From a virus, in IMG/VR virus record IMGVR_UViG_3300036884_000045, positions 1 to 50,132 of that record: a stretch of 50,132 nt of DNA. One strand, 5' to 3'. Positions within the stretch are counted from its first letter, which is position 1. Each line of letters begins with the position of its first letter. Under the pieces are notes generated by a model, which saw only the letters and a list, made by a program, of their open reading frames with translations, did no database searches and was not told the DNA's origin. Shown piece by piece: positions 1 to 50,132 of this stretch. The position numbers and the translations under genes are program-made.

Positions 1-111
1 TATGAATTTAAGCCAGAGGACAGGAAGGAAATTCCCGCACAGGTGAAGATTGAGCCGGCACAATTTGTCCCCGTTAATAAATCAAAGAGTAAATTCCAGG
101 TTGTAAAATAA
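1..111 (+). CDS. 3' end of small coiled-coil head-region protein (partial)
   Basis: The reading frame is open from base 1 to TAA at 109-111 and corresponds to the last 36 codons of the complete gene at 39943-40164. It is cut by the window edge. The downstream MuF gene starts directly after the stop codon. Function unknown; see the complete copy. Confidence 0.85.
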   Translation, partial: YEFKPEDRKEIPAQVKIEPAQFVPVNKSKSKFQVVK

Positions 112-3748: not shown

Positions 3749-3768
3749 GGGGTTGCATAAGCGACCCC
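3749..3768 (+). other. Hairpin after the capsid gene
   Basis: GGGGTTGC and GCGACCCC form an 8-bp stem with one G-U pair around an ATAA loop. Only AAATTT follows rather than a T-run, so it is a poor intrinsic terminator. It may protect or partly attenuate the capsid transcript. Confidence 0.45.
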
Positions 3769-3795
3769 AAATTTAATATTAAAGGAAAAATAAAC

Positions 3796-4230: not shown

Positions 4231-4245
4231 TCCAAAGGATTATAA

Positions 4246-4533
4246 ATGATAACCTTTGAATTATTCGGGATTGTAAAATCTAAAGGTAAAACTATAGCCG
4301 TTGGTGACAGCGGCTTATTTTCTACCGATAATAATAAAGTCATATCTAAATTAGATCAACTCGGATTCAAAAGAATCGAATCAATCACTCTTGAAACAAG
4401 CGAAAAAAAAGAGTCCGAGTTGGTCCTTAAATCAGAACTTGAAGTGCCAAAAGGTGTAACGTTTCCTATAGAAATGAAAATACCCGATGCACATAATAAA
4501 CCCATTAAAAAACCGAAAGGTAAGAAGAAATGA
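4246..4533 (+). CDS. Hypothetical 95-residue head-region protein
   Basis: Unrecognised. A small mixed alpha/beta protein with an acidic middle and a strongly basic tail ending in K-P-K-G-K-K-K. AAAGGATTATAA precedes the ATG, and the stop codon overlaps the next start (ATGA). The position between capsid and neck genes suggests a structural or assembly role. Confidence 0.55.
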   Translation: MITFELFGIVKSKGKTIAVGDSGLFSTDNNKVISKLDQLGFKRIESITLETSEKKESELVLKSELEVPKGVTFPIEMKIPDAHNKPIKKPKGKKK

Positions 4534-5396
4534 AAAAGATAATATTTGCAATTTTAGTTTTAATTGGCTCGGTTATTGTAATGGGACAGGACAGGACAGT
4601 ATTACCGAACACTCCTTTTTATAAAGATACCCTATCGGCAAGCAGAGATACAATAGATGTTCTATTCTCTGATTATGGAGATAAAGAAACATTTACCTTT
4701 ACAGCCTACACCACTACAGGAACGGACACAGTTTTAATTTATACCAAGTCCTTAGATGGTACTATCTGGGTAAGTAAGGCTTCTTTTGCAATTACCACTA
4801 CTCCGGTTGAATATGGGATAGATGATCCGGAACCTACTGCAATAAGAGTTATAAGCACAAGTAACGATGCCTCGACTACCGTATTTGTATTGGCAGGTAA
4901 GAAAGGTTTAATAAATGATTATGGAGAAACTTCAACCACTACAGTAACGATAGATCCCCCAACAGGTGGATTTGCTACAAATAATAAACTTGATTCTGCT
5001 GTAACCATATTAAAGGCACCCCTTGACACAACCGGCAATTATGCAAGGAGTATAATCAAGGCTGATTTGGATAGTCTTAACGTTGTGAATATTTGTTTAG
5101 TAGATTCTGCTAAAGGCGACACCCTTACAACTGCAGGACTTATACATCAGATAAATATTGCATCATTAGGAATATTGCATTGGTACATATACACCCTCTA
5201 CTCTGATAGTGGGTATTATCATAAGGCTACTAAATGGGGTGGAAATGTTTTTGCAAGTTTACCCCCTGTGATGCCAGCATTGGGTAGCTTTACATCTGAA
5301 AAATTAGATCCTGCACAATTCATTTATGTTGATTATTTGAAAAGCGGAATTCATAATGGCAGCCAAATAATATATGTACAAATACAAGGAAGATAG
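4530..5396 (+). CDS. Signal-peptide protein in the head operon
   Basis: A 288-residue protein with a clear Sec signal peptide (M-K-K then a hydrophobic core to about residue 18, predicted cleavage before Gln-20). The mature part is rich in Thr, Ser and Asp and looks beta-structured. Function unknown; it could be a surface-displayed or envelope-acting protein made late in infection. A secretion signal is unusual within a phage head gene cluster. The ATGA overlap with the previous gene supports the start. Three signal-peptide genes follow in a row. Confidence 0.65.
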   Translation: MKKIIFAILVLIGSVIVMGQDRTVLPNTPFYKDTLSASRDTIDVLFSDYGDKETFTFTAYTTTGTDTVLIYTKSLDGTIWVSKASFAITTTPVEYGIDDPEPTAIRVISTSNDASTTVFVLAGKKGLINDYGETSTTTVTIDPPTGGFATNNKLDSAVTILKAPLDTTGNYARSIIKADLDSLNVVNICLVDSAKGDTLTTAGLIHQINIASLGILHWYIYTLYSDSGYYHKATKWGGNVFASLPPVMPALGSFTSEKLDPAQFIYVDYLKSGIHNGSQIIYVQIQGR

Positions 5397-5400
5397 TAAT

Positions 5401-6537
5401 ATGAAAAATATAATTTTATTTGTAATGTTATTGAGTGGTCTTTTATTTGCACAAACAACACCAAGTGGATATACTGCCAATATCCATTTAAGAAAATGGG
5501 CTGATGGTGCGATACACCCATCGGGCGATAGTCTCAATGCTAATTTAGATGGTATCGATACTCTTTTAGGAAAGCATAGTAATGCTGTTTTAATTAAATC
5601 AGATAGAACAATTCATAGATATTCTACACTAAAATTAGCTGTTGCTGATGCTGATTCAGGAAGTGTTATTACATTATATCAGGGAGTTTACTCTGATTCC
5701 GTAACTGTTACAACACAAGGAATAACCATTAAGGGCATTTCAAAGGAATCTGTTTTAATTACGGGAGCACTATATATAACTGCTTCTTTTGGAGAATTAT
5801 CAAATGTTAAAATATCTGGAAACTTAACTTTTATAGGACAAATTTCTACTGCTTGTTATGTAGTTAATGATTGTAGACTTGAAAATAATGTAAATGTAGG
5901 ATTAGCAGGGATAGCAATAGCGAGCGATGTTGAGTTTAATAATTGTTATTTAGGTTCTGATGCTTCAACTTGGGCTGGAAGTTCAAAAACTTTTTATTTT
6001 AATACATCTATACAAAGAGCAATTTACTTTCACTGCTGTTACAGTTTCGCATGGCATGATAGTCAAGCATTTATTCTTAATGCATACTCACGAGTTGATT
6101 TACAAACATGTGATCTTGCTCTCTATGGTGTATATTTTACCGGAGGTACCGGCTATACTGTTCCAATACCAGAATTGGATGCGAATGGTGGGAGATTTCA
6201 GACTACTACTGGTGGGTATTCTAATAGTGGTTATTGTGTGATGGTTGCCAGAAATTGTGCATTTGGGTTTTCAAGCACAATTACTTTGAGCAATCATTTT
6301 CAAATTCAGTTAATGCAGTGTACTATAGCGGCTGGAGCACCCAACTCCACAATAATATGTAATTCTGCTTCTAACAATTTGCAGATAATAATGTGTTATG
6401 GGGTTATAAATTTTAGTAATATAACAGGAAGCGGTTTAGCTAATCTACACATACAAGACTGTATTTTTGGTTTTGCCAAACCGACTGGAATAGCAAATGA
6501 TGATAATAATGTGTGGAACTCTTACGTGGATTATTAA
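5401..6537 (+). CDS. Secreted right-handed beta-helix protein
   Basis: A 378-residue protein: signal peptide (residues 1-18, ending L-F-A before Gln), then a segment resembling phage fibre anchors (L-R-K-W-A-D-G-A-I-H-P near 30-40), then repeated short beta strands typical of pectate-lyase-like right-handed beta-helices (residues about 80-370). Such domains often bind or cut polysaccharide, but no catalytic set is visible. I chose the ATG at 5401 because it has AAGGAAGATAG upstream and begins the signal peptide; a TAC-rich upstream extension is unlikely. Confidence 0.65.
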   Translation: MKNIILFVMLLSGLLFAQTTPSGYTANIHLRKWADGAIHPSGDSLNANLDGIDTLLGKHSNAVLIKSDRTIHRYSTLKLAVADADSGSVITLYQGVYSDSVTVTTQGITIKGISKESVLITGALYITASFGELSNVKISGNLTFIGQISTACYVVNDCRLENNVNVGLAGIAIASDVEFNNCYLGSDASTWAGSSKTFYFNTSIQRAIYFHCCYSFAWHDSQAFILNAYSRVDLQTCDLALYGVYFTGGTGYTVPIPELDANGGRFQTTTGGYSNSGYCVMVARNCAFGFSSTITLSNHFQIQLMQCTIAAGAPNSTIICNSASNNLQIIMCYGVINFSNITGSGLANLHIQDCIFGFAKPTGIANDDNNVWNSYVDY

Positions 6538-6538
6538 C

Positions 6539-7441
6539 ATGAAAACAATAATTTTATTTATAGCATTATTCTCAATATCTATTTATAGCCAATCAGGATA
6601 TGGTTATGATTATGGAAATAATTATGGCGGAATTTCTATTGCTTTTACTGGTTCTGGGATGATACAAATAGGACAAACTGGTGTTCATAGTTTTGGATTA
6701 TCTTTAGATAAAACAGGAATAAACAGAGTACGAAGCTTAATTACTTCTGTTGCTGCACCAATAGTAATAACTTCTGCTAAATCAGTTATTGATTTTGTTT
6801 CAGAAGGTGCAGGCGGAAATGTTACCTCTGATGGTGGTGGAACTATAACAGCAAGGGGACTTGTTTGGGATTATTCAACAAACCCTATGCCCTCTGTAAC
6901 TTCATTTAAGGGAAAGACCATAGAACCGGGTACTACAGGTAGTTTCACAAACACAATGATTGAATTAGATACTACTCACACTTTTCGTTATAGGGCTTAT
7001 GCAACTAATTCGGCAGGTACTTCTTATGGAAATGATTCTACTTTTGCTATTAGAACTAATATACTTATTTATGATGCTTATTTATCAGGAGATGGAACAT
7101 CCATCAATGAAGATAGTCAGTTGGCAAACACTTTGAATTATAGTGGTATGTGGTATTGCGGGGGTGGAGTAATAACAAGTGATGCTTTTTCAGATATGAA
7201 TAATGACAACTATACATTGCAGTCGAATGTTGATGGTGTTGATATAACATTCTCCCCCTCTACAGTTGACCAAGTGCATGGAGATATTGCTATTGTTAGG
7301 CAGTCTTTTACTATCGGCACTTTTTCATTAGCATCAGCTAATATTCCCACTTGTGGAATCTTTGATGCAGACCATGCCCCAGATGATGTTCAAATTGATC
7401 TTAGGGTAATAATCACAAAGAAAGTGCCATATAACCCATGA
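6539..7441 (+). CDS. Secreted Ig/FN3-like repeat protein
   Basis: A 300-residue protein with a signal peptide ending in Y-S before Gln, a Gly/Tyr-rich segment (residues 20-32) and one Bacteroidota-type Ig/FN3-like unit (about 95-175) with T-A-R-G-L-V-W and Y-R-A-Y-A-T-N-S-A-G-T-S-Y-G. These repeats are common in secreted adhesins of Bacteroidota. The same module occurs without a signal peptide at 15384-15788. The start at 6539 is 1 bp after the previous stop codon and is chosen because it opens the signal peptide. Confidence 0.65.
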   Translation: MKTIILFIALFSISIYSQSGYGYDYGNNYGGISIAFTGSGMIQIGQTGVHSFGLSLDKTGINRVRSLITSVAAPIVITSAKSVIDFVSEGAGGNVTSDGGGTITARGLVWDYSTNPMPSVTSFKGKTIEPGTTGSFTNTMIELDTTHTFRYRAYATNSAGTSYGNDSTFAIRTNILIYDAYLSGDGTSINEDSQLANTLNYSGMWYCGGGVITSDAFSDMNNDNYTLQSNVDGVDITFSPSTVDQVHGDIAIVRQSFTIGTFSLASANIPTCGIFDADHAPDDVQIDLRVIITKKVPYNP

Positions 7442-7463
7442 TAAATAAAGCAGGTAAAAGAAA

Positions 7464-8027
7464 TTGAACAAATACATTTGTACACAAGCGGAAGTAAAAG
7501 AACTACTGCAAATAACAGCAACGACATGGGACACCATGATAACGAATTTACTTCCTGTTATTGCAAAACAGATTACCGCTTATTGTAAAAATACATTTGT
7601 GTCTGATAAAGTTAAACTTACTTCATTAGATTTAGTATTTGCCGCAACAGCGAAAACAATTACGGGCGATACCAGCCTTGATAATTTTACAACAGGATAT
7701 TTTTACGCAGACGATGTGATTTTAATTGAAGGCAGTATAAGGAATGACGGGGTTTATGAATTACAAACTGTTTTGAATAATGTACTCACTCTTAAATCTA
7801 CCGATACGATTAAAGATGAGGCTGTAAGCGATTTCATAGTTTCAATCCAAAGAATAGATTACCCGGGCGATCTTAAATTAGCTTTTGCAGATATAGTAAA
7901 ATCATTCATTGATGTTAACAGGGGCGTTCAACATTTCTCTTTAGCAGATTATTCGGTTACTTATTTTAATAGTAATATCTCAGATTTCGCAAAAGGTATA
8001 TTAAATAATTATAGGAGGATATTTTAA
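7464..8027 (+). CDS. Head-tail connector (gp6-like adaptor)
   Basis: A 187-residue protein whose N-terminus (a V-K-E-L-L-Q-I-T stretch, W-D-T-M-I-T-N-L-L, then A-Y-C-K-N-T-F near residue 45) matches the gp6/HK97 gp6-like adaptor pattern, here with an extra beta insert (about 60-110). Adaptors form a ring under the portal. The start is TTG with AGGTAAAAG upstream. The C-terminus is helical (F-A-K-G-I-L-N-N-Y-R-R). Confidence 0.68.
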   Translation: MNKYICTQAEVKELLQITATTWDTMITNLLPVIAKQITAYCKNTFVSDKVKLTSLDLVFAATAKTITGDTSLDNFTTGYFYADDVILIEGSIRNDGVYELQTVLNNVLTLKSTDTIKDEAVSDFIVSIQRIDYPGDLKLAFADIVKSFIDVNRGVQHFSLADYSVTYFNSNISDFAKGILNNYRRIF

Positions 8028-8028
8028 C

Positions 8029-8154
8029 ATGGCAAAAAGAATCAAATCAGGCACTTTTAAGACTTCTTACAAGAACGGAAAGAAAGTAGTTACCGGAATC
8101 TCAAAGAAGACTGGCAAAAGAATAGTTCATCATATAGCCAAAAAAGGAAAATAA
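8029..8154 (+). CDS. Lys-rich 41-residue protein
   Basis: Unrecognised. The ATG at 8029 follows a strong AGGAGG site. Nearly two fifths of the residues are Lys, Arg or His, and there are no acidic residues, so DNA or RNA contact is plausible. It lies between the connector and head-closure genes, next to a second basic mini-protein with the same M-A-K beginning. Confidence 0.55.
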   Translation: MAKRIKSGTFKTSYKNGKKVVTGISKKTGKRIVHHIAKKGK

Positions 8155-8158
8155 TATC

Positions 8159-8287
8159 ATGGCAAAAACTAAAAGTTCAAGAAAAAAGAAAAGTAGTGGC
8201 GGTGGTAAGTCAAGATTTGCCGCAACGATAAGGAAAAACCCAAGTAAATTCCCCGCCAAGACAGTTGCATGGGCTAAGAAACATTGA
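8159..8287 (+). CDS. Lys/Ser-rich 42-residue protein
   Basis: Unrecognised. Begins M-A-K-T-K, has an R-K-K-K-S-S-G-G-G-K linker and a short helix (F-P-A-K-T-V-A-W-A-K-K-H). No acidic residues. The stop codon overlaps the TTG start of the head-closure gene. It may be packaged in the head or help neck assembly; there is no direct evidence for either. Confidence 0.5.
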   Translation: MAKTKSSRKKKSSGGGKSRFAATIRKNPSKFPAKTVAWAKKH

Positions 8288-8607
8288 AGATCCCCTATAA
8301 CATAACATTTGCTTTTCAATCCGTTACCTCCGTAAGTGATAACATGGGGGGAACTACAGACACGTGGGCGACTGTTTCAGGTTTAAGCGCCGTACAGGGT
8401 CATCACAGAGAATTAAATGCAAACGAAATCTTTGCAAATGAAAAGAAAGGATTTAAGGCATTTGATATGTTCTATTGTGATTATATTTCCTCAGTAACAG
8501 ACACTTATCAAATCCTGTTTAATGGCGGCGTTTATAAAATACAGAATGTAAATGATCCTCATGGGATGCATTTATTTTTACAAATAGATACTCTAAAAAA
8601 TAGTTGA
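8284..8607 (+). CDS. Head-tail joining (head-closure) protein
   Basis: A 107-residue beta-rich protein matching the phage head-tail joining family (SPP1 gp16 / HK97 gp7-like): D-N-M-G-G-T-T-D-T-W near residues 20-29, then R-E-L-N-A-N-E, and V-Y-K-I-Q-N-V-N-D near the end. It would seal the connector after packaging. The TTG start overlaps the preceding stop codon. Confidence 0.75.
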   Translation: MKIPYNITFAFQSVTSVSDNMGGTTDTWATVSGLSAVQGHHRELNANEIFANEKKGFKAFDMFYCDYISSVTDTYQILFNGGVYKIQNVNDPHGMHLFLQIDTLKNS

Positions 8608-8623
8608 TTAAGGATAATTGAAT

Positions 8624-8956
8624 ATGGCAGATAATATAGAAACACACGCAGAGCAAGAAGTTCATGCAAAAGAAAGTGGGTATAGAATATTACAATCTTG
8701 GCACATATATCTAATGATCGCAGTAATGCTTGTTGGCTTTGGTGTCACTTGGGGAACTACTACAAGCGCCATAACTACTTTAGAAAATAGAGTAACAAAA
8801 ACGGAAGTAAATATTAACGAGATGCAGAAGGAATTGCCCACACAAGCAGTTCTTGTTTCTAAAATAGAAACATTAACCAAACAAGTTGATGTTTTATCAG
8901 ACAAGTTAGATAGAATCTTAATGAATACTTACGGACAAAAAGGAGTAAGAAAATGA
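8624..8956 (+). CDS. Membrane/coiled-coil lysis accessory protein
   Basis: A 110-residue protein with one transmembrane helix (about 28-50) followed by a long coiled coil (55-100), the plan of XhlA-like accessory lysis proteins. I start at ATG 8624 after AAGGATAATTG; an upstream TTG adds two residues. It opens the lysis cassette, and its stop codon overlaps the next small membrane protein. Confidence 0.6.
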   Translation: MADNIETHAEQEVHAKESGYRILQSWHIYLMIAVMLVGFGVTWGTTTSAITTLENRVTKTEVNINEMQKELPTQAVLVSKIETLTKQVDVLSDKLDRILMNTYGQKGVRK

Positions 8957-9030
8957 GCATAACAACGGTTTATATATTCATAGGAATAATAATTTTAGTA
9001 ACACTGTATCAAATATTTAGAAAAAAATAA
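8953..9030 (+). CDS. 25-residue membrane peptide
   Basis: One hydrophobic helix ending in R-K-K. ATGA overlap with the upstream gene and AAGGAGTAAGAAA before the start support translation. Its place between the coiled-coil membrane protein and the putative holin suggests a lysis role, perhaps a small antiholin-like or accessory peptide. Confidence 0.45.
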   Translation: MSITTVYIFIGIIILVTLYQIFRKK

Positions 9031-9042
9031 AAGGAGTCCAAA

Positions 9043-9309
9043 ATGTCACTTTTCGGAAAGATAAATTGGTTGGATGTATTGAAGGGATTCATAGTAGGCG
9101 TAGGCACTGTAGTCTTAACAGGGGTTTATACAGCGTTACAATCCGGCACGCTTCCAACGTTAGCACAACTTGAAACTTTGGGATTGACTGGGCTCGGTGC
9201 GGGATTAGCTTATTTACTCAAAAATATATTTAGTAATAATGCCGGAGTTCCTTTAGCAAAAGACGTTCCCGCAAGTACAACGGTTGGCGAATTAACTAAT
9301 AAAGTTTAA
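9043..9309 (+). CDS. Putative holin
   Basis: An 88-residue protein with two hydrophobic segments (about 11-30 and 45-62) and polar ends, directly upstream of the lysozyme gene. Holins form membrane lesions that let the endolysin reach the cell wall and set lysis time. AAAGGAGTCC precedes the ATG. The family is not recognised; the call rests on topology and position. Between this gene and 9384 there is a weak hairpin (CCGGCT/AGCCGG). Confidence 0.6.
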   Translation: MSLFGKINWLDVLKGFIVGVGTVVLTGVYTALQSGTLPTLAQLETLGLTGLGAGLAYLLKNIFSNNAGVPLAKDVPASTTVGELTNKV

Positions 9310-39942: not shown

Positions 39943-40164
39943 ATGTTAATTAGTAGAGGTCGGTTTGATGGATTATGTAACGAGAATAAAGAATTATGGA
40001 AAGAGATTTGTCATCTTTGGGACAGGATAAATCTTCTATCTAAAACACTTGGCTATGAATTTAAGCCAGAGGACAGGAAGGAAATTCCCGCACAGGTGAA
40101 GATTGAGCCGGCACAATTTGTCCCCGTTAATAAATCAAAGAGTAAATTCCAGGTTGTAAAATAA
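39943..40164 (+). CDS. Small coiled-coil head-region protein
   Basis: Unrecognised 73-residue protein: helical first half (L-C-N-E-N-K-E-L-W-K-E-I near 11-22), then a Pro/Val/Lys-rich tail. The stop codon directly precedes the MuF TTG start. Its last half also appears at 1-111. GAGGTTAAT before ATG. Confidence 0.55.
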   Translation: MLISRGRFDGLCNENKELWKEICHLWDRINLLSKTLGYEFKPEDRKEIPAQVKIEPAQFVPVNKSKSKFQVVK

Positions 40165-42177
40165 TTGCCCTCCCAAGAATCCATAGCGTTATCGAAACTT
40201 ACAACTGATAAAATCAATTCCCTGTTATTATTAAGGGACGAAACAGCAGATAAGCAATACCTTGCATGGGAGAATGAACTACTTAATACCTACAAGCGTT
40301 CTTTACTTGCAATCAAAGATCAAATCCGTGCCATGTATGAAAAGTATGGGGAATCGGTTACTTTATCAGAAATGCAGTCCTTCAATCGGTTAAAGAATCT
40401 TGAATTACAGATTACTAAAGAGATCAACACGTTAAATACTAATATCACTATCAGAACCAGAAAACAGTTAGGCAATTTCTTTGAATCTAATTATTATCAA
40501 ACGGGCTTTGCTATTGAATCAGGCTTGGGGATGGATTTAAGTTTTGGTTTGTTGAATCCTTCGGTTATCCAGGCGGCAGTTGTTAATCCTTACGATTGGG
40601 AAGGGAGATTGAAGCTATGGAATAATAAATTACTGTTGGATATTAAGCAGAACGTAACTGATGGATTAACACAAGGGAATGGATTAGTAAAGACTACTAA
40701 AAATATTCAAACCTCTTTTGAAACTAATCTGGGCAAAAGAGCAGCAGATAAAATAACACGCTCAAATATTTTAAGAGTAGTAAGAACCGAATCCACAAGG
40801 GCACAGGAAATAGGAAATGTCTCTGGATTTTCACAAGCTCAACAGGATGCAAGCGATTTAGGTTTTGAAACATTAAAAATATGGGATGCTACACTTGATA
40901 GTAGAACACGCCCGAATCATGGGGCTATGGATGGCAAGGCAGCCGATAGTGAAGGGATGTTTCACTTTACAACTATGGATGGGAATAAGATTCTTGTTGA
41001 GGCTCCGCATTTAACAAATACAACGGACGATATAAACTGTTTCCCTGAATATGTTAATGCCTTTTCAATCACCCCTATCAAAAAGGCATATAAACGATTC
41101 TATGAGGGTGAATTAGTTGAGATCACTACTCGAAGTGGAATAAAGCTCACCGGTTCCCCTAAACACCCAATACTTACCCCTGAAGGATGGATCGGCATAG
41201 GTTCTTTGAATAATGGGGATAATGTTTTGAAGTGTACTCTCAACAAGAATGTCGTTTCTTGCAACCCAAATATAAATAATATTCCATCCCGAATTAGTAA
41301 AGTTTTTGATCTTTCTTCTATCTTTTTCCCTTGTCAGCGGACAGGCGGGGTCTCTCAACAATTCCATGGCGACGGAACCGATGGCGATGTCGATATTGTA
41401 TTGGTTAAAGGCCTTTTGAGGGATCGCATTAAATCCTTTTTGAGCAAACCAGTCAAGAATATATTTCTCACCCTCGCCGACCTTGGAAAGGGTCTTTTGT
41501 TTTGTATGAGCCGAAAGACTCATTTCCTCAATAGTCCTAACCCTACCAGTACAAGCTTTATGAGCAGCCTCGACTTGGTGAAGCCTTTTCTTTTTAGACA
41601 TATTTTTCCATTTAAGAGATTCGCTCTCGGATTGAGTTCTGCGGGTAATGCCGTTTTTAGTGAGGATTCTTCTTATAACGGCACGGCTAATATTAAAAGT
41701 TTTAGCGATTTGATTTTCGGAAACACCAGAGATATAGTCTTTGATAATTTTAGACGAATTAAAGATTTCAAATTTACTCATATTATTTCTAAGAGTAAGT
41801 TGAGTACATTCTTTCGGGGTTCTCTTTTCAATACTATAGTCTCTCATAATTCTATCGACACACCCAGTGCTGATATTGAAAATTTTTGCAAGGTCTTTCC
41901 GGTAAGTGCCGGAATTGTAAAGACTGATAAAGTGGTTAATATTAGAAAGTTTTATTTTAGCGGGCATTTGTATAACCTTGAAACTGTTAATAATTATTAT
42001 CTTGCTGCTAATATACAAAAAGACAACGACAATATCAATTTCTTAATAGCGCATAATTGCCGCTGCAATTCAAGAGTTGAAATCAAAGGCTTAGAGCCTT
42101 CTGTACGCAGGGATAATGAAAATAAAACAGTCATCAAATATCAGACTTACGATAAATGGAAGGAAACATTAAAATGA
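40165..42177 (+). CDS. MuF-like minor head protein precursor with intein
   Basis: A 670-residue precursor. Extein residues 1-291 and 632-670 equal the 330-residue MuF protein at 112-1104 (about 88% identity). Residues 292-631 are an intein at the conserved N-C-R-C motif. Splicing would restore D-D-I-N-C-R-C, as in the empty allele D-R-I-N-C-R-C. This allele has family-typical residues R-T-E-S-T-R-A and D-S-R-T-R-P-N-H-G. TTG start as in the other copy. If splicing fails the head protein would be non-functional. Confidence 0.88.
   Translation: MPSQESIALSKLTTDKINSLLLLRDETADKQYLAWENELLNTYKRSLLAIKDQIRAMYEKYGESVTLSEMQSFNRLKNLELQITKEINTLNTNITIRTRKQLGNFFESNYYQTGFAIESGLGMDLSFGLLNPSVIQAAVVNPYDWEGRLKLWNNKLLLDIKQNVTDGLTQGNGLVKTTKNIQTSFETNLGKRAADKITRSNILRVVRTESTRAQEIGNVSGFSQAQQDASDLGFETLKIWDATLDSRTRPNHGAMDGKAADSEGMFHFTTMDGNKILVEAPHLTNTTDDINCFPEYVNAFSITPIKKAYKRFYEGELVEITTRSGIKLTGSPKHPILTPEGWIGIGSLNNGDNVLKCTLNKNVVSCNPNINNIPSRISKVFDLSSIFFPCQRTGGVSQQFHGDGTDGDVDIVLVKGLLRDRIKSFLSKPVKNIFLTLADLGKGLLFCMSRKTHFLNSPNPTSTSFMSSLDLVKPFLFRHIFPFKRFALGLSSAGNAVFSEDSSYNGTANIKSFSDLIFGNTRDIVFDNFRRIKDFKFTHIISKSKLSTFFRGSLFNTIVSHNSIDTPSADIENFCKVFPVSAGIVKTDKVVNIRKFYFSGHLYNLETVNNYYLAANIQKDNDNINFLIAHNCRCNSRVEIKGLEPSVRRDNENKTVIKYQTYDKWKETLK
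41113..41967 (-). CDS. Antisense homing-endonuclease-like gene inside the intein
   Basis: A 284-residue protein on the minus strand. Two helix-turn-helix units: Y-R-K-D-L-A-K-I-F-N-I-S near 22-33 and E-N-Q-I-A-K-T-F-N-I-S near 84-94, each followed by a T-x-R/K-T-x-x-E element. A Vsr/PD-(D/E)XK-like nuclease region follows: G-E-G-E-K-Y-I-L near 164-171, Y-N-I-D-I-A-I near 191-197, V-A-M-E-L near 200-204, G-W-N-I-I-Y-I-W near 228-235. ATG 41967 is the complement of intein His-310 and has AAGG 8 nt upstream; a longer start at 42018 lies close to the promoter. Codons are in exact register with the sense codons, so TTA, CTA and TCA never occur among about 18 Leu and 26 Ser. The usual His after the core is not obvious, so catalysis is unproven. 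Confidence 0.75.
   Translation of the reverse strand: MPAKIKLSNINHFISLYNSGTYRKDLAKIFNISTGCVDRIMRDYSIEKRTPKECTQLTLRNNMSKFEIFNSSKIIKDYISGVSENQIAKTFNISRAVIRRILTKNGITRRTQSESESLKWKNMSKKKRLHQVEAAHKACTGRVRTIEEMSLSAHTKQKTLSKVGEGEKYILDWFAQKGFNAIPQKAFNQYNIDIAIGSVAMELLRDPACPLTREKDRRKIKNFTNSGWNIIYIWVARNDILVESTLQNIIPIIQRTYADPSFRGKYWVFRGTGELYSTSSSDLN
42010..42038 (-). promoter_or_regulatory. Minus-strand promoter inside the intein
   Basis: On the minus strand TTGATA (42038-42033) and TATATT (42015-42010) are 17 bp apart, ending 42 bp before the antisense ATG at 41967. The boxes lie in the codons for A-N-I-Q-K-D-N-D-N-I-N, between splicing blocks F and G. Matches 5 of 6 at each box, the same layout as the promoter at 1871-1899. 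Confidence 0.6.
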
Positions 42178-42404
42178 TAGATCGTAAAATTGAATCCTTA
42201 ACATTCCCCGTATTAAGACAAATGAATCTCATAAACGAGAAGGAGTTGAGGGATTTGTTTATCGTTAATGATTTCAAGGAGATGAGAGCAGAAGGGTTAA
42301 CCGTTGAGGCGATAATTGAGATATGTTCACAAAAGAAATATAATAACCAGTATCTATCAAAATATATGATTAGGTATATTATTTATAAAAAGGGGTTATC
42401 GTGA
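42174..42404 (+). CDS. Hypothetical 76-residue protein (right copy)
   Basis: Same as 1101-1331. In this copy the alternative earlier start at 42156 is ATG rather than TTG, because the last divergent base lies there. Confidence 0.6.
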   Translation: MIDRKIESLTFPVLRQMNLINEKELRDLFIVNDFKEMRAEGLTVEAIIEICSQKKYNNQYLSKYMIRYIIYKKGLS

Positions 42405-42541
42405 CAAATTCTTTGTTGATAATCTCTCATATAATCTAACAGGCTACAGCTCCAAAGCCATTTAGACATTTGATAAGAGATTGCTTTTGCCCTCCTTATA
42501 TTTTTGCCATTAAACTTCCTCTTCTTTATCCTAGCCTTCAT
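42383..42541 (-). CDS. Basic 52-residue protein of reverse cassette (right copy)
   Basis: Same as 1310-1468, with the AAGGAGAAG ribosome site and the ATGA overlap with the upstream reverse gene. Confidence 0.5.
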   Translation of the reverse strand: MKARIKKRKFNGKNIRRAKAISYQMSKWLWSCSLLDYMRDYQQRICHDNPFL

Positions 42542-42696
42542 TTCTTCTCCTTAATCAGTTTCATTACAAAATCAGCAAGTCCCATAGCTCCCCTGGATAA
42601 GTTTATCAGATCAAACTCTTTAGAAGTTACCCGGAATTGTATTTGACAATCACGTCCGCCCTTGTGAGGGGTGATTATGCGTTTAATCTTTTCCAT
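42538..42696 (-). CDS. Ribbon-helix-helix-like regulator (right copy)
   Basis: Same as 1465-1623; middle gene of the reverse cassette. Confidence 0.45.
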   Translation of the reverse strand: MEKIKRIITPHKGGRDCQIQFRVTSKEFDLINLSRGAMGLADFVMKLIKEKK

Positions 42697-42907
42697 ATTC
42701 TTTTGTATAAAACTTAAATTCAAGTATAATCGTTTCAAATTCATCCGGTTTTCTTGGATTAAAAATCGGATATAAATCAAAATAAAAGAATTTCGTTAAA
42801 ATAAAACGCACTAACTTAAACAACAGTCCCTTACATAATACTTGCGCCTTGTTATATTTATAATCGCCACTAAAATATGTGTGGGAACCCAAAATTTGTC
42901 CTTCCAT
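42683..42907 (-). CDS. Hypothetical 74-residue protein of reverse cassette (right copy)
   Basis: Same as 1610-1834; first gene of the reverse cassette. Confidence 0.45.
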   Translation of the reverse strand: MEGQILGSHTYFSGDYKYNKAQVLCKGLLFKLVRFILTKFFYFDLYPIFNPRKPDEFETIILEFKFYTKEYGKD

Positions 42908-42943
42908 CGTCCTTCCTCTATAATTGTTTTTAATCCTACTTTT

Positions 42944-42995
42944 AATATACGAGAATGTATATCTAAAATCAATAGACTTTCTAAAATTATTAGAA
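42944..42995 (-). promoter_or_regulatory. Reverse cassette promoter and palindromes (right copy)
   Basis: Same as 1871-1922: TTGATT-17-TATATT on the minus strand with ATATAC/GTATAT and TTCTAA/TTAGAA palindromes. Confidence 0.55.
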
Positions 42996-43121
42996 TGATT
43001 TTATATAACCAAACACTTATTCTTTCGGTGTCGATATTTAGTATTTCCACGACAACAAAGGAAAGAGATTACGAAGAGAGAACTTCAACAAACACAGTCA
43101 AATCTAAACCATAAGGAATAT

Positions 43122-43766
43122 ATGGAAAAATTAACAAGTTTACCTACACCTGAATTATTTGCTTCAACTTACAAAGATCAAATCTTATATGTTGCTAAAG
43201 CAGATGAAAATGTCATTGTTGATAATAATGGCAAGTATATGCCAGTCGATAAGCATAACGCTGAAATGACAGCAAAGAAACTTGAAATAGAAAACCTCAA
43301 ATCTCAAAAAGACTCTACAGATGCTGAATTAACGAAGCTGAAAAAAGAGTTTAAGGATGTTGAGGGGTTTTCAGATGCCATTAAAAAACTACAGACAGAG
43401 AATGCCGAAAAAGATAAAGTTCTCGAATCAACTAAGAAATCTTATACCATCAAAGAAGCGGTAAAAGATGCTTATAGAGATTTAGGCGTTAATGCAGAAT
43501 ACTTGGATTATGTAATAGGTAAGGAAAACCCCGAACTCGAAAAGGTGGAACTGAAAGAAGGTAAATTTGTGATCGACACCGAAAAAGTTAAAACATTAAA
43601 AGAAAAATATAAAGCAGTAATCGGTATTACTACTGTTAAGGGCTTTACGCCTGATAATGGCAATATCGATACTTCCGGTGATGCTGAATTTAAGAAATAC
43701 AACGTCACTCAACAAATTGAATTAAAGAAAAAAGACCCGGAAACATATAAACGAGTTTTCGGATAG
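43122..43766 (+). CDS. Capsid scaffold protein (right copy)
   Basis: Identical translation to 2049-2693. Confidence 0.75.
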   Translation: MEKLTSLPTPELFASTYKDQILYVAKADENVIVDNNGKYMPVDKHNAEMTAKKLEIENLKSQKDSTDAELTKLKKEFKDVEGFSDAIKKLQTENAEKDKVLESTKKSYTIKEAVKDAYRDLGVNAEYLDYVIGKENPELEKVELKEGKFVIDTEKVKTLKEKYKAVIGITTVKGFTPDNGNIDTSGDAEFKKYNVTQQIELKKKDPETYKRVFG

Positions 43767-43779
43767 GAGATAAAATTTC

Positions 43780-44808
43780 ATGGCACTTCAAGCAACGGCA
43801 ATTACCAATATTTATGAACCAACAATATGGTCTAAATATTTCATAGAACTTACTACTCAAAAATCATTACTTATTCAATCAGGTATAGCGGGCACAGACC
43901 TGGAACTAACAGCGGCAGCCAACGAGGGCGGACGTGTTGTTAATATGCCTTTCTGGGATGATCTTCCACATGATACAGGTTCAACAACCAGATCAAAGGT
44001 CGCAACCGATACAGATGATGAAATCACACCGGCCGGAATTACATCCAATGAAGATATAGCAGTTAAAGAATTTAGAACACAGGATTTCCAGGTTGCCCCG
44101 ATAGTCAAATATGTGGCTGGTGACGATCCTGCAAATGTAATAGTTCAAAGATATGCAACATGGTGGAATAAAGAAGAGCAAAGACTTCTTCTACTTAAAT
44201 TAACAGGTGCTTTCCTTAATTCAACCATTTACGGAAACTTACAGAATGATATTTCCACAGGTGCACCTACAACTAATGCAGCTAATCTAATTTCAACAGA
44301 TGCAATTCTTGATACCCAGTTTCTTTTAGGCGATGCTTATGAGAAATTGACCGGTATTATAATGCACTCAGTAGTTTTCAAAAGATTAGCTAAACTTGAT
44401 TTGATTGATAACTTACCTGAGTCACAGCAAAGTCCATTGATTATGCCAACCTATCAGGGGAAGAAAATCCTTGTTGATGACGGTATGACTGTATATGATG
44501 GTACTACTTACAAAAAGTATTATACTTATTTATTCGGACAGGGAGCAATCGGAAGGGTAGATATACCTCTTCAATCCGGCGATCCCGAACTTGAATTATT
44601 CAGAAATCCTAAAGCTGGCGTTGGTGCTGGTATGTTGGATATAATTTCAAGACGTTATTTCATTTTACACCTTAGAGGAATCAAGTATTATGATTCTAAT
44701 ATGGCTGGTGTTTCTCCCTCAGATGCTGAGTTAGTTGATCCTACAAATTATACTCAGGTTTATTTAACCAAGAATATAAGAATCGCACGTTTGGTCACAA
44801 ACGGGTAA
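43780..44808 (+). CDS. Major capsid protein (right copy)
   Basis: Identical translation to 2707-3735; the hairpin after it recurs at 44822-44841. Confidence 0.88.
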   Translation: MALQATAITNIYEPTIWSKYFIELTTQKSLLIQSGIAGTDLELTAAANEGGRVVNMPFWDDLPHDTGSTTRSKVATDTDDEITPAGITSNEDIAVKEFRTQDFQVAPIVKYVAGDDPANVIVQRYATWWNKEEQRLLLLKLTGAFLNSTIYGNLQNDISTGAPTTNAANLISTDAILDTQFLLGDAYEKLTGIIMHSVVFKRLAKLDLIDNLPESQQSPLIMPTYQGKKILVDDGMTVYDGTTYKKYYTYLFGQGAIGRVDIPLQSGDPELELFRNPKAGVGAGMLDIISRRYFILHLRGIKYYDSNMAGVSPSDAELVDPTNYTQVYLTKNIRIARLVTNG

Positions 44809-44868
44809 TTCAAACATTTATGGGGTTGCATAAGCGACCCCAAATTTAATATTAAAGGAAAAATAAAC

Positions 44869-45303
44869 ATGGAAAAATCATTTAGTAGTATTGTAAATAA
44901 AGAAAAGCATGGATTAGGCGGAGTTGTTAAAACTCTCGCTTCTGCTTTTTCTGGCGATCTTGTTTTCGTAGTTAGTCCCGCAACCGTTACACCCGCCCCG
45001 AGGTCAACAGCATGGACAAGAACCGTAAAGGTTTATCTTAAAAATGCAGCTGGCGATATTCATACTTGGTTTAGCAAGGCCATTGCTACGGGTGTTTCTA
45101 TTGCAGATACCTCAACGGCCGGAGCCGCTACTATTCCGAGTACAACCCTTACCTTTATCGAGGGCGTGGCCACCGTGGTGGTTAGCGGAGACGCACAGGC
45201 ATGGCTTAATACAGAGACTGATACTTTGACGGTTCCACAAGCGACCATCTTGGGTTATACGGTGGCAGCGAAAACAAGTGTAGAAACCTTTACAACTCCT
45301 TAA
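44869..45303 (+). CDS. Probable decoration protein (right copy)
   Basis: Identical translation to 3796-4230, including the GC-richer codon use. Confidence 0.5.
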   Translation: MEKSFSSIVNKEKHGLGGVVKTLASAFSGDLVFVVSPATVTPAPRSTAWTRTVKVYLKNAAGDIHTWFSKAIATGVSIADTSTAGAATIPSTTLTFIEGVATVVVSGDAQAWLNTETDTLTVPQATILGYTVAAKTSVETFTTP

Positions 45304-45318
45304 TCCAAAGGATTATAA

Positions 45319-45606
45319 ATGATAACCTTTGAATTATTCGGGATTGTAAAATCTAAAGGTAAAACTATAGCCGTTGGTGACAGCGGCTTATTTTCTACCG
45401 ATAATAATAAAGTCATATCTAAATTAGATCAACTCGGATTCAAAAGAATCGAATCAATCACTCTTGAAACAAGCGAAAAAAAAGAGTCCGAGTTGGTCCT
45501 TAAATCAGAACTTGAAGTGCCAAAAGGTGTAACGTTTCCTATAGAAATGAAAATACCCGATGCACATAATAAACCCATTAAAAAACCGAAAGGTAAGAAG
45601 AAATGA
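45319..45606 (+). CDS. Hypothetical 95-residue protein (right copy)
   Basis: Identical translation to 4246-4533. Confidence 0.55.
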   Translation: MITFELFGIVKSKGKTIAVGDSGLFSTDNNKVISKLDQLGFKRIESITLETSEKKESELVLKSELEVPKGVTFPIEMKIPDAHNKPIKKPKGKKK

Positions 45607-46469
45607 AAAAGATAATATTTGCAATTTTAGTTTTAATTGGCTCGGTTATTGTAATGGGACAGGACAGGACAGTATTACCGAACACTCCTTTTTATAAAGA
45701 TACCCTATCGGCAAGCAGAGATACAATAGATGTTCTATTCTCTGATTATGGAGATAAAGAAACATTTACCTTTACAGCCTACACCACTACAGGAACGGAC
45801 ACAGTTTTAATTTATACCAAGTCCTTAGATGGTACTATCTGGGTAAGTAAGGCTTCTTTTGCAATTACCACTACTCCGGTTGAATATGGGATAGATGATC
45901 CGGAACCTACTGCAATAAGAGTTATAAGCACAAGTAACGATGCCTCGACTACCGTATTTGTATTGGCAGGTAAGAAAGGTTTAATAAATGATTATGGAGA
46001 AACTTCAACCACTACAGTAACGATAGATCCCCCAACAGGTGGATTTGCTACAAATAATAAACTTGATTCTGCTGTAACCATATTAAAGGCACCCCTTGAC
46101 ACAACCGGCAATTATGCAAGGAGTATAATCAAGGCTGATTTGGATAGTCTTAACGTTGTGAATATTTGTTTAGTAGATTCTGCTAAAGGCGACACCCTTA
46201 CAACTGCAGGACTTATACATCAGATAAATATTGCATCATTAGGAATATTGCATTGGTACATATACACCCTCTACTCTGATAGTGGGTATTATCATAAGGC
46301 TACTAAATGGGGTGGAAATGTTTTTGCAAGTTTACCCCCTGTGATGCCAGCATTGGGTAGCTTTACATCTGAAAAATTAGATCCTGCACAATTCATTTAT
46401 GTTGATTATTTGAAAAGCGGAATTCATAATGGCAGCCAAATAATATATGTACAAATACAAGGAAGATAG
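45603..46469 (+). CDS. Signal-peptide protein (right copy)
   Basis: Identical translation to 4530-5396. Confidence 0.65.
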   Translation: MKKIIFAILVLIGSVIVMGQDRTVLPNTPFYKDTLSASRDTIDVLFSDYGDKETFTFTAYTTTGTDTVLIYTKSLDGTIWVSKASFAITTTPVEYGIDDPEPTAIRVISTSNDASTTVFVLAGKKGLINDYGETSTTTVTIDPPTGGFATNNKLDSAVTILKAPLDTTGNYARSIIKADLDSLNVVNICLVDSAKGDTLTTAGLIHQINIASLGILHWYIYTLYSDSGYYHKATKWGGNVFASLPPVMPALGSFTSEKLDPAQFIYVDYLKSGIHNGSQIIYVQIQGR

Positions 46470-46473
46470 TAAT

Positions 46474-47610
46474 ATGAAAAATATAATTTTATTTGTAATG
46501 TTATTGAGTGGTCTTTTATTTGCACAAACAACACCAAGTGGATATACTGCCAATATCCATTTAAGAAAATGGGCTGATGGTGCGATACACCCATCGGGCG
46601 ATAGTCTCAATGCTAATTTAGATGGTATCGATACTCTTTTAGGAAAGCATAGTAATGCTGTTTTAATTAAATCAGATAGAACAATTCATAGATATTCTAC
46701 ACTAAAATTAGCTGTTGCTGATGCTGATTCAGGAAGTGTTATTACATTATATCAGGGAGTTTACTCTGATTCCGTAACTGTTACAACACAAGGAATAACC
46801 ATTAAGGGCATTTCAAAGGAATCTGTTTTAATTACGGGAGCACTATATATAACTGCTTCTTTTGGAGAATTATCAAATGTTAAAATATCTGGAAACTTAA
46901 CTTTTATAGGACAAATTTCTACTGCTTGTTATGTAGTTAATGATTGTAGACTTGAAAATAATGTAAATGTAGGATTAGCAGGGATAGCAATAGCGAGCGA
47001 TGTTGAGTTTAATAATTGTTATTTAGGTTCTGATGCTTCAACTTGGGCTGGAAGTTCAAAAACTTTTTATTTTAATACATCTATACAAAGAGCAATTTAC
47101 TTTCACTGCTGTTACAGTTTCGCATGGCATGATAGTCAAGCATTTATTCTTAATGCATACTCACGAGTTGATTTACAAACATGTGATCTTGCTCTCTATG
47201 GTGTATATTTTACCGGAGGTACCGGCTATACTGTTCCAATACCAGAATTGGATGCGAATGGTGGGAGATTTCAGACTACTACTGGTGGGTATTCTAATAG
47301 TGGTTATTGTGTGATGGTTGCCAGAAATTGTGCATTTGGGTTTTCAAGCACAATTACTTTGAGCAATCATTTTCAAATTCAGTTAATGCAGTGTACTATA
47401 GCGGCTGGAGCACCCAACTCCACAATAATATGTAATTCTGCTTCTAACAATTTGCAGATAATAATGTGTTATGGGGTTATAAATTTTAGTAATATAACAG
47501 GAAGCGGTTTAGCTAATCTACACATACAAGACTGTATTTTTGGTTTTGCCAAACCGACTGGAATAGCAAATGATGATAATAATGTGTGGAACTCTTACGT
47601 GGATTATTAA
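46474..47610 (+). CDS. Secreted beta-helix protein (right copy)
   Basis: Identical translation to 5401-6537. Confidence 0.65.
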   Translation: MKNIILFVMLLSGLLFAQTTPSGYTANIHLRKWADGAIHPSGDSLNANLDGIDTLLGKHSNAVLIKSDRTIHRYSTLKLAVADADSGSVITLYQGVYSDSVTVTTQGITIKGISKESVLITGALYITASFGELSNVKISGNLTFIGQISTACYVVNDCRLENNVNVGLAGIAIASDVEFNNCYLGSDASTWAGSSKTFYFNTSIQRAIYFHCCYSFAWHDSQAFILNAYSRVDLQTCDLALYGVYFTGGTGYTVPIPELDANGGRFQTTTGGYSNSGYCVMVARNCAFGFSSTITLSNHFQIQLMQCTIAAGAPNSTIICNSASNNLQIIMCYGVINFSNITGSGLANLHIQDCIFGFAKPTGIANDDNNVWNSYVDY

Positions 47611-47611
47611 C

Positions 47612-48514
47612 ATGAAAACAATAATTTTATTTATAGCATTATTCTCAATATCTATTTATAGCCAATCAGGATATGGTTATGATTATGGAAATAATTATGG
47701 CGGAATTTCTATTGCTTTTACTGGTTCTGGGATGATACAAATAGGACAAACTGGTGTTCATAGTTTTGGATTATCTTTAGATAAAACAGGAATAAACAGA
47801 GTACGAAGCTTAATTACTTCTGTTGCTGCACCAATAGTAATAACTTCTGCTAAATCAGTTATTGATTTTGTTTCAGAAGGTGCAGGCGGAAATGTTACCT
47901 CTGATGGTGGTGGAACTATAACAGCAAGGGGACTTGTTTGGGATTATTCAACAAACCCTATGCCCTCTGTAACTTCATTTAAGGGAAAGACCATAGAACC
48001 GGGTACTACAGGTAGTTTCACAAACACAATGATTGAATTAGATACTACTCACACTTTTCGTTATAGGGCTTATGCAACTAATTCGGCAGGTACTTCTTAT
48101 GGAAATGATTCTACTTTTGCTATTAGAACTAATATACTTATTTATGATGCTTATTTATCAGGAGATGGAACATCCATCAATGAAGATAGTCAGTTGGCAA
48201 ACACTTTGAATTATAGTGGTATGTGGTATTGCGGGGGTGGAGTAATAACAAGTGATGCTTTTTCAGATATGAATAATGACAACTATACATTGCAGTCGAA
48301 TGTTGATGGTGTTGATATAACATTCTCCCCCTCTACAGTTGACCAAGTGCATGGAGATATTGCTATTGTTAGGCAGTCTTTTACTATCGGCACTTTTTCA
48401 TTAGCATCAGCTAATATTCCCACTTGTGGAATCTTTGATGCAGACCATGCCCCAGATGATGTTCAAATTGATCTTAGGGTAATAATCACAAAGAAAGTGC
48501 CATATAACCCATGA
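47612..48514 (+). CDS. Secreted Ig/FN3-like protein (right copy)
   Basis: Identical translation to 6539-7441. Confidence 0.65.
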   Translation: MKTIILFIALFSISIYSQSGYGYDYGNNYGGISIAFTGSGMIQIGQTGVHSFGLSLDKTGINRVRSLITSVAAPIVITSAKSVIDFVSEGAGGNVTSDGGGTITARGLVWDYSTNPMPSVTSFKGKTIEPGTTGSFTNTMIELDTTHTFRYRAYATNSAGTSYGNDSTFAIRTNILIYDAYLSGDGTSINEDSQLANTLNYSGMWYCGGGVITSDAFSDMNNDNYTLQSNVDGVDITFSPSTVDQVHGDIAIVRQSFTIGTFSLASANIPTCGIFDADHAPDDVQIDLRVIITKKVPYNP

Positions 48515-48536
48515 TAAATAAAGCAGGTAAAAGAAA

Positions 48537-49100
48537 TTGAACAAATACATTTGTACACAAGCGGAAGTAAAAGAACTACTGCAAATAACAGCAACGACAT
48601 GGGACACCATGATAACGAATTTACTTCCTGTTATTGCAAAACAGATTACCGCTTATTGTAAAAATACATTTGTGTCTGATAAAGTTAAACTTACTTCATT
48701 AGATTTAGTATTTGCCGCAACAGCGAAAACAATTACGGGCGATACCAGCCTTGATAATTTTACAACAGGATATTTTTACGCAGACGATGTGATTTTAATT
48801 GAAGGCAGTATAAGGAATGACGGGGTTTATGAATTACAAACTGTTTTGAATAATGTACTCACTCTTAAATCTACCGATACGATTAAAGATGAGGCTGTAA
48901 GCGATTTCATAGTTTCAATCCAAAGAATAGATTACCCGGGCGATCTTAAATTAGCTTTTGCAGATATAGTAAAATCATTCATTGATGTTAACAGGGGCGT
49001 TCAACATTTCTCTTTAGCAGATTATTCGGTTACTTATTTTAATAGTAATATCTCAGATTTCGCAAAAGGTATATTAAATAATTATAGGAGGATATTTTAA
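48537..49100 (+). CDS. Head-tail connector (right copy)
   Basis: Identical translation to 7464-8027, TTG start. Confidence 0.68.
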   Translation: MNKYICTQAEVKELLQITATTWDTMITNLLPVIAKQITAYCKNTFVSDKVKLTSLDLVFAATAKTITGDTSLDNFTTGYFYADDVILIEGSIRNDGVYELQTVLNNVLTLKSTDTIKDEAVSDFIVSIQRIDYPGDLKLAFADIVKSFIDVNRGVQHFSLADYSVTYFNSNISDFAKGILNNYRRIF

Positions 49101-49101
49101 C

Positions 49102-49227
49102 ATGGCAAAAAGAATCAAATCAGGCACTTTTAAGACTTCTTACAAGAACGGAAAGAAAGTAGTTACCGGAATCTCAAAGAAGACTGGCAAAAGAATAGTT
49201 CATCATATAGCCAAAAAAGGAAAATAA
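49102..49227 (+). CDS. Lys-rich 41-residue protein (right copy)
   Basis: Same as 8029-8154. Confidence 0.55.
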   Translation: MAKRIKSGTFKTSYKNGKKVVTGISKKTGKRIVHHIAKKGK

Positions 49228-49231
49228 TATC

Positions 49232-49360
49232 ATGGCAAAAACTAAAAGTTCAAGAAAAAAGAAAAGTAGTGGCGGTGGTAAGTCAAGATTTGCCGCAACG
49301 ATAAGGAAAAACCCAAGTAAATTCCCCGCCAAGACAGTTGCATGGGCTAAGAAACATTGA
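49232..49360 (+). CDS. Lys/Ser-rich 42-residue protein (right copy)
   Basis: Same as 8159-8287. Confidence 0.5.
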   Translation: MAKTKSSRKKKSSGGGKSRFAATIRKNPSKFPAKTVAWAKKH

Positions 49361-49680
49361 AGATCCCCTATAACATAACATTTGCTTTTCAATCCGTTAC
49401 CTCCGTAAGTGATAACATGGGGGGAACTACAGACACGTGGGCGACTGTTTCAGGTTTAAGCGCCGTACAGGGTCATCACAGAGAATTAAATGCAAACGAA
49501 ATCTTTGCAAATGAAAAGAAAGGATTTAAGGCATTTGATATGTTCTATTGTGATTATATTTCCTCAGTAACAGACACTTATCAAATCCTGTTTAATGGCG
49601 GCGTTTATAAAATACAGAATGTAAATGATCCTCATGGGATGCATTTATTTTTACAAATAGATACTCTAAAAAATAGTTGA
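49357..49680 (+). CDS. Head-tail joining protein (right copy)
   Basis: Identical translation to 8284-8607. Confidence 0.75.
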   Translation: MKIPYNITFAFQSVTSVSDNMGGTTDTWATVSGLSAVQGHHRELNANEIFANEKKGFKAFDMFYCDYISSVTDTYQILFNGGVYKIQNVNDPHGMHLFLQIDTLKNS

Positions 49681-49696
49681 TTAAGGATAATTGAAT

Positions 49697-50029
49697 ATGG
49701 CAGATAATATAGAAACACACGCAGAGCAAGAAGTTCATGCAAAAGAAAGTGGGTATAGAATATTACAATCTTGGCACATATATCTAATGATCGCAGTAAT
49801 GCTTGTTGGCTTTGGTGTCACTTGGGGAACTACTACAAGCGCCATAACTACTTTAGAAAATAGAGTAACAAAAACGGAAGTAAATATTAACGAGATGCAG
49901 AAGGAATTGCCCACACAAGCAGTTCTTGTTTCTAAAATAGAAACATTAACCAAACAAGTTGATGTTTTATCAGACAAGTTAGATAGAATCTTAATGAATA
50001 CTTACGGACAAAAAGGAGTAAGAAAATGA
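49697..50029 (+). CDS. Lysis accessory membrane protein (right copy)
   Basis: Identical translation to 8624-8956. Confidence 0.6.
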   Translation: MADNIETHAEQEVHAKESGYRILQSWHIYLMIAVMLVGFGVTWGTTTSAITTLENRVTKTEVNINEMQKELPTQAVLVSKIETLTKQVDVLSDKLDRILMNTYGQKGVRK

Positions 50030-50103
50030 GCATAACAACGGTTTATATATTCATAGGAATAATAATTTTAGTAACACTGTATCAAATATTTAGAAAAAAA
50101 TAA
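50026..50103 (+). CDS. 25-residue membrane peptide (right copy)
   Basis: Same as 8953-9030. Confidence 0.45.
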   Translation: MSITTVYIFIGIIILVTLYQIFRKK

Positions 50104-50115
50104 AAGGAGTCCAAA

Positions 50116-50132
50116 ATGTCACTTTTCGGAAA
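50116..50132 (+). CDS. Putative holin, 5' fragment cut by the window edge
   Basis: First 17 bases of the gene seen complete at 9043-9309; the start codon and AAAGGAGTCC site are present. Confidence 0.6.

Follow-up and report, generated by a model that had tools for sequence, protein, structure and literature searches.

A probable homing endonuclease gene antisense to a phage head-gene intein, with a putative promoter and ribosome-binding site in the codons of the intein

The window analyzed here, an IMG/VR virus record of 50,132 bases, probably carries a mobile intein in a phage head gene whose homing endonuclease is encoded separately, by an opposite-strand gene that has a promoter and ribosome-binding site of its own; its transcription, DNA cutting and protein splicing are inferred. 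Directly observed are the overlap of the two genes, constraint on the antisense frame, selection on its Shine-Dalgarno (SD) sequence and start codon, enrichment of promoter sequences upstream of it, and the coexistence of empty and filled alleles of the insertion site. The features are listed in Table 1.

Table 1. Positions of the head gene, the intein and the antisense unit in the window
Feature	Position	Strand	Description
Intein-free allele	112-1104	+	Same gene as the host gene, 330 aa; insertion site between 984 and 985
Host gene	40165-42177	+	MuF-type minor head protein with intein, 670 aa (330 aa after predicted splicing); Pfam and phrog matches
Intein	41038-42057	+	340 aa (C1 ... AHN/C); Cys at 41038, Asn at 42057; whole antisense unit inside
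Sigma70-like promoter	-35 TTGATA 42038-42033; -10 TATATT 42015-42010	-	17-nt spacer ttgtcgttgtctttttg; inferred transcript start near 42003
Shine-Dalgarno AAGG	41979-41976	-	Reverse complement of CCTT in block F codons AAC CTT (Asn-Leu)
Antisense gene	41967-41113	-	284-aa putative homing endonuclease; ATG start, TAA stop; two helix-turn-helix domains and a Vsr/I-Bth0305I-like nuclease domain

The plus-strand ORF matches Pfam Phage_Mu_F (E = 4e-10) and phrog_15127 (E = 9e-51). Its insert meets the criteria for an intein, namely a block A Cys, a block B TxxH motif and a block G Asn followed by Cys, Ser or Thr, with block F reading GHLYNLE and block G reading AHN/C. Among 71 host proteins the splicing residues H334, N631 and C632 are invariant, C292 and T331 are conserved in at least 90%, and Pfam Intein_splicing is matched in 54 at E ≤ 0.001. 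An ADP-ribosyltransferase domain was also matched in two of the 71 head proteins and Phage_min_cap2 in three. In the predicted structure of the sense product, the flanking Hint parts mostly have pLDDT values of 83-96, and approximately residues 430-570 reach only 31-45. The best Foldseek matches of this model are intein splicing domains (top E = 6e-3); by itself, Foldseek found nothing in the PDB at E ≤ 1e-3 with the sense or the antisense model. Removal of the intein restores the host protein, the intein-free allele having exactly the 670 minus 340 residues expected, and the same holds in two other contigs. By its motifs, its modeled Hint fold and its precise insertion, the region is identified as an intein, with splicing itself inferred. 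The criterion for a conventional endonuclease-bearing intein, an endonuclease in frame as an intein domain, is not met; here the middle part of the intein is the mirror of the codons of the endonuclease gene.

A tblastn search with the antisense product matched 135 of 50,697 phage records at E ≤ 1e-3, and most of the matches listed overlap genes whose annotation is minor head, head morphogenesis or hypothetical protein. Twenty-two of 23 annotated phage loci that were fetched have the antisense arrangement, none of the 22 with a CDS annotated on the antisense strand there; the Snoke and fEg-Eco06 records annotate the intein and nothing else of the unit. One alignment-based scan yielded three loci and a scan of genome contigs also yielded three, while a search over 369 genomes of one class found 48 with a match, only an Aggregatibacter prophage being near full length. 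The window, the annotated phages and the IMG/VR and genome scans gave 218 loci, a count from which the copies of the window (L001-L003) had been removed and in which the identical copies L027, L028, L148 and L150 were kept. Loci were collected by their endonuclease only, so that an opposite open frame was not selected for. Setting aside two loci without such a frame (L011 and L220) left 216, of which 188 had a start codon assigned in block F context, and dereplication of these at 80% amino acid identity left 131. In the other 28 of the 216 (e.g., L018, L078 and L120) the antisense endonuclease is present, but no start codon was identified in the context of block F; contig ends may truncate some of these genes, and others may use a start elsewhere or no longer have one.

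For the promoter analysis, the host codons up to 120 nt upstream of the SD sequence were redrawn synonymously 1000 times per locus in all 131 loci, and the best sigma70-type site was scored with a fixed E. coli-type matrix. This run replaced an earlier one, which required a full-length upstream stretch and took only 82 of the 131. The antisense strand beats the synonymous null at p < 0.05 in 63/131 loci (Fisher 3e-63); in the remaining 68 there is no significant site. With phage codon usage as the null, the sense strand at the same place is significant in 13/131 (Fisher 2e-5) and the extein in 6/129, and with the intein's own codon usage the antisense count is 62/131 and the sense count 10/131 (Fisher 0.37). 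Thus the slight excess on the sense strand vanishes with the intein's own usage and the antisense signal stays, so AT-richness or odd codon usage is not its source. The same explanation is ruled out by the extein and by conventional inteins, of which 16 from 30 control loci had a placeable C-block: none of the 16 has a significant promoter, TATAAT or TTGACA. Taking one locus per 60% cluster leaves 49/106 significant. In a matrix-free count, TATAAT ranks first among upstream hexamers on the antisense strand, occurring in 51/131 loci (sense strand, 5), and TTGACA occurs in 29 loci on the antisense strand versus one on the sense strand. Exact TTGACA-16..18-TATAAT pairs occur in 14 loci in 14,148 upstream strand-bases, versus three in 1,394,866 strand-bases elsewhere in the same loci, and perfect consensus pairs are found at a spacing of 17-18. 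These counts support a family-wide enrichment of sigma70-like promoter sequences upstream of the antisense gene, from which transcription is inferred.

The original prediction had named free variation of both boxes in homologs as one possible refutation. The letters and the position do vary, with the -10 box of significant sites ending 26-30 nt before the start codon in 33/63 and 45-48 nt before it in 23/63; the refutation thus applies to letters and position, though not to the presence of a promoter, for which the 63 significant loci speak. Two designs are seen, according to the residue before the splice Asn, which in the 131 loci is His in 61, Ser in 47, Lys in nine, Arg in six, Gln in six, and Gly and Phe in one each. 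In the His loci the -10 box falls on block G, where Ile is encoded by ATT in 31/46 cases (9.8 expected) and by ATA in 26/37 (5.9 expected), Thr, Ala or Val codons in -CA or -TA are over-used, and an extended -10 box (TGnTATAAT) often lies on the I-I-x-H codons; the block G His codon itself is unbiased (CAC in 37/60, 38.7 expected). In the Ser loci, TTGACA lies on block G next to the splice junction, the Ser at the position before being TCA in 15/16 (2.6 expected), and TATAAT lies on the preceding strand codons. A -35 TTGACA by the splice junction is the best site in 23/47 Ser loci versus 0/61 His loci, and in the S class both boxes are inside the intein in 27/28 significant cases. It is conceivable, and we put it forward tentatively, that the demands of the antisense promoter have influenced the catalytic end of the intein, with selection for endonuclease expression setting residues of the splicing active site, and that the endonuclease may repress itself at this promoter. 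As the C-extein half of the homing site coincides with the promoter or adjoins it, self-repression is a reasonable guess.

In the window itself, the letters of the predicted promoter are as originally described: TTGATA and TATATT on the minus strand are separated by 17 nt, within the 15-19 nt required of a sigma70-type promoter, with the -10 box ending 42 nt before the ATG. The boxes lie in the linker between blocks F and G, and AAGG and the ATG lie inside block F, which bears out the proposal that promoter and ribosome site are both written in intein codons. A TTG at 42018 was rejected as an alternative start codon, as it is just upstream of the -10 box and so would be absent from any transcript of that promoter. 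The site matches the consensus at 10/12 positions and is one of only two reaching at least 10/12 in a scan of 2.2 kb. The weighted matrix gives it 12.7 bits, and no other site in the 120 nt before the SD sequence scores higher. Apart from identical copies, the nearest relatives of the locus share only 34-36% amino acid identity, and the exact boxes are therefore not testable by conservation. Taken alone, the site is moderate evidence for a promoter; the strong evidence comes from the family.

A chance match of these boxes in AT-rich coding DNA, with the antisense gene having another promoter or being silent, is the alternative that survives best, and we regard it as unlikely but not negligible. 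A plain consensus scan of the 2.2-kb region at a threshold of 9/12 returns eight promoter-like sites versus 7.9 in shuffles, synonymous recoding gives p = 0.055 with phage codon usage (0.030 with the intein's own), and over half of the homologs, as given above, have no significant site. Against chance, only seven sites of at least 12.7 bits occur in 41,073 bp on both strands, with 0.010 expected per 120 nt of one strand; moreover, the distance to the start codon is beside the 45-48 nt class of the family, the spacer is 17 nt and the site is wholly inside the intein.

Somewhat less likely still is that the antisense gene owes its transcription to read-through, from minus-strand promoters or small ORFs that lie upstream in 42361-42907. 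Minus-strand promoter-like sites are present at 42407-42378 (10/12) and 42389-42361, and no terminator-like site was found between 42000 and 43200, so read-through cannot be excluded. Overlapping small minus-strand ORFs at 42538-42780 and 42683-42907 (80 and 74 aa) are possible genes, but they have no Pfam match. A mobile unit that needed outside transcription would also be silent at new sites, and the boxes of the S class are, as noted, almost always inside the intein.

The AAGG is 8 nt before the ATG, as the original prediction had it, and across the family SD sequence and start are written in block F. In 188/216 loci a start codon could be assigned at the block F motif H-V-Y-[ND]-L-[QE] or within three codons of it; the ATG is the reverse complement of a His codon, and the [ND]-L-[QE] codons, read on the other strand, give the SD sequence (GGAGG, GAGG or AAGG). 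Start codons in the 131 loci are ATG in 114, GTG in 16 and TTG in one, and the strongest SD word per locus is GGAGG in 48, GAGG in 23, GGAG in 20, AAGG in 11, AGG in six and none in 23. The block F Leu codon is CTC in 92 of the 111 loci that have Leu at this position, versus 24.5 expected from the usage of each locus (z = 16.5), an excess seen in every GC class; in conventional inteins CTC is at this position in 0/16. From codon choice alone, the SD sequence and start of the antisense gene are thus judged to be under selection across the family. The window has CTT for this Leu, and its AAGG alone is not decisive because CTT makes up 22% of its Leu codons. An SD-like word precedes 22/37 plus-strand ORFs of the window, with a background of 10.7%, which indicates that the host of the phage uses SD initiation.

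The codon bias in blocks F and G could in principle serve the sense strand through translation speed, RNA folding or element-specific codon usage, and rare codons such as ATA in block G, together with the slight sense-strand excess of promoter-like sites with phage codon usage, are compatible with this. We consider it very improbable, since under the own-usage null the sense strand is at background and the antisense count holds, the block G His codons are unbiased, conventional inteins lack TATAAT, TTGACA and CTC at these positions, and perfect consensus pairs occur at a spacing of 17-18.

The antisense ORF faces the middle of the intein with codon opposite codon, and its product is predicted with high confidence (AlphaFold mean pLDDT = 93.2), whereas the sense reading reaches only 31-45 over most of the same DNA. 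The model consists of two N-terminal helix-turn-helix domains, forming the DNA-binding part, followed by a nuclease domain. The best solved structures for the nuclease domain are Vsr (PDB: 1cw0, Z = 10.3 over 110 residues), I-Bth0305I (PDB: 3r3p, Z = 9.6 over 91/97) and 3hrl (Z = 9.6), and a profile search agrees with the fold (3r3p, E = 6e-6; 3hrl, E = 2e-4). In 60 sequences D193 and E202 are invariant and E167 is nearly invariant; the His of the EDxHD motif remains unmapped residue by residue. According to the model, the product is a Vsr-fold nuclease related to I-Bth0305I, with cleavage inferred.

That the antisense frame is a gene is indicated by its coding constraint. The codon-aligned opposite frame is free of stops over approximately 260 codons in 216/218 loci; the mean numbers of stops in the other two opposite frames are 19.8 and 8.8. 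The codons TTA, CTA and TCA, each of which would put a stop in the sense frame, are absent from the 131 loci (0 versus 745 expected) and from the window (0 versus 19.3, P = 6e-12). Zero antisense stops are weak evidence alone in GC-rich inteins, as 5/16 conventional inteins also have none. In 37 independent pairs (9,957 codons), the overlap has most of its substitutions at antisense codon position 3 (2936, 1616 and 3788 at positions 1, 2 and 3), and in the extein controls the maximum is at sense position 3. Identity is 0.656 for the antisense versus 0.558 for the sense product, the antisense being higher in 35/37 pairs. In terms of sequence constraint, and without transcript data, the antisense ORF is a real gene, its frame being the constrained one. 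The claim that it is independently expressed is accordingly supported at the level of the family, by this constraint, the fold, the selection on SD sequence and start, and the promoter excess, again without a transcript. Long codon-opposed antisense ORFs are common in GC-rich genes, but that this one is a non-coding shadow of the sense gene is practically untenable and is ruled out by the codon-position counts and the confident fold, the locus being AT-rich (36% GC), the antisense frame being the conserved one with invariant active-site-like residues, and two homologs (L011 and L220) having the endonuclease without an opposite open frame. L011 (455-1348) comes from an Acinetobacter phage, where it is annotated as a free-standing gene adjoining a minus-strand gene, and L220, from an IMG/VR contig, has the same stop pattern. 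These two homologs may represent the source of the antisense gene or an escape form.

The left end of the window is not a plain repeat of its right end and holds a different, intein-free allele of the head gene. Positions 1-111 equal 40054-40164 and positions 1105-9059 equal 42178-50132 without a mismatch. Between the two alleles, 170/993 positions differ, spanning 237-1083 and clustering most closely around the insertion site; third codon positions account for 105 of them, and 289/330 residues agree. The empty allele is also present in two other IMG/VR contigs (L221 and L222), L222 differing from the empty copy of the window by one mismatch over the 2.6 kb immediately before the divergent patch and by one in 4,071 bp from there on, and L001 and L002 carry the filled allele. 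The likeliest reading of these comparisons is a circular genome of approximately 41 kb, assembled through a bubble from a population with both alleles, in which the intein came with its flanks from a diverged donor by co-conversion. That the divergent patch arrived with the intein is an inference; the patch looks like the trace of a recent homing event around the insertion site.

In the mechanism that we propose, the endonuclease gene would occupy the stretch where an in-frame endonuclease domain would usually sit, codon facing codon. Host RNA polymerase would start on the minus strand at the sigma70-type promoter in the C-terminal codons of the intein, and ribosomes would start at the SD sequence and ATG written in block F, so that the endonuclease would be made independently of the head gene. 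It would then cut intein-free alleles, and repair would copy the intein together with promoter, ribosome-binding site and gene. Late sense transcription may afterwards oppose the antisense expression. The arrangement would free the timing of the endonuclease from that of the head gene, which is likewise inferred.

Inteins with an in-frame endonuclease (LAGLIDADG and others) share with this element the Hint halves, a conserved insertion site in the host protein, an endonuclease between blocks B and F, and homing. In those inteins, however, the endonuclease is an intein domain translated with the host protein, whereas here it is a separate opposite-strand gene with its own putative promoter and ribosome-binding site, and the sense linker mirrors its codons. 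Antisense homing endonuclease genes exist in nuclear group I introns, on the strand opposite the host gene; this orientation is shared, but the intron is non-coding and no overlap of two proteins results. According to PMC2988022, the T4 intron endonucleases I-TevI, I-TevII and I-TevIII have their own promoters in the mobile element, which uncouple their timing from that of the host gene, and I-TevI acts as a repressor of its own expression. This repression takes place at its late promoter. The embedded promoter is a likeness to the present element; the T4 promoters lie inside a non-coding intron, whereas here the promoter is on the opposite strand inside protein-coding splicing motifs. The I-Bth0305I/EDxHD (Vsr-fold) family resembles the antisense product in its nuclease domain, by profile and fold, and in its N-terminal helix-turn-helix-type DNA-binding domains. 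According to PMC3943268 it was described as a group I homing endonuclease family, unlike the genes antisense inside inteins found here. The literature searched yielded no earlier account of an endonuclease gene lying antisense inside an intein, but most subscription papers are outside its scope, so an earlier report may exist; a term search in PMC7765530, PMC3229294, PMC5050341 and PMC3943268 likewise found none.

If this reading is true, there is a common class of mobile inteins, apparently overlooked, in which the endonuclease is encoded antisense and its promoter, ribosome-binding site and start are set within splicing motifs. A single stretch of DNA would then hold two proteins and a control region, and would do so repeatedly in phages of very different hosts. 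It would be a clear case of overlapping antisense coding with selection on both strands, and would explain unannotated ORFs in Aaphi23, Jersey-like Salmonella phages, Snoke and Gordonia phages. It would also offer a testable reason for the arrangement, namely that the timing of the homing enzyme need not follow the late head gene. On the plus strand, a strong promoter-like site, TTGAGA-17-TATAAT (11/12), at 42316-42344 lies within a small ORF (42156-42404), upstream of the next head genes.
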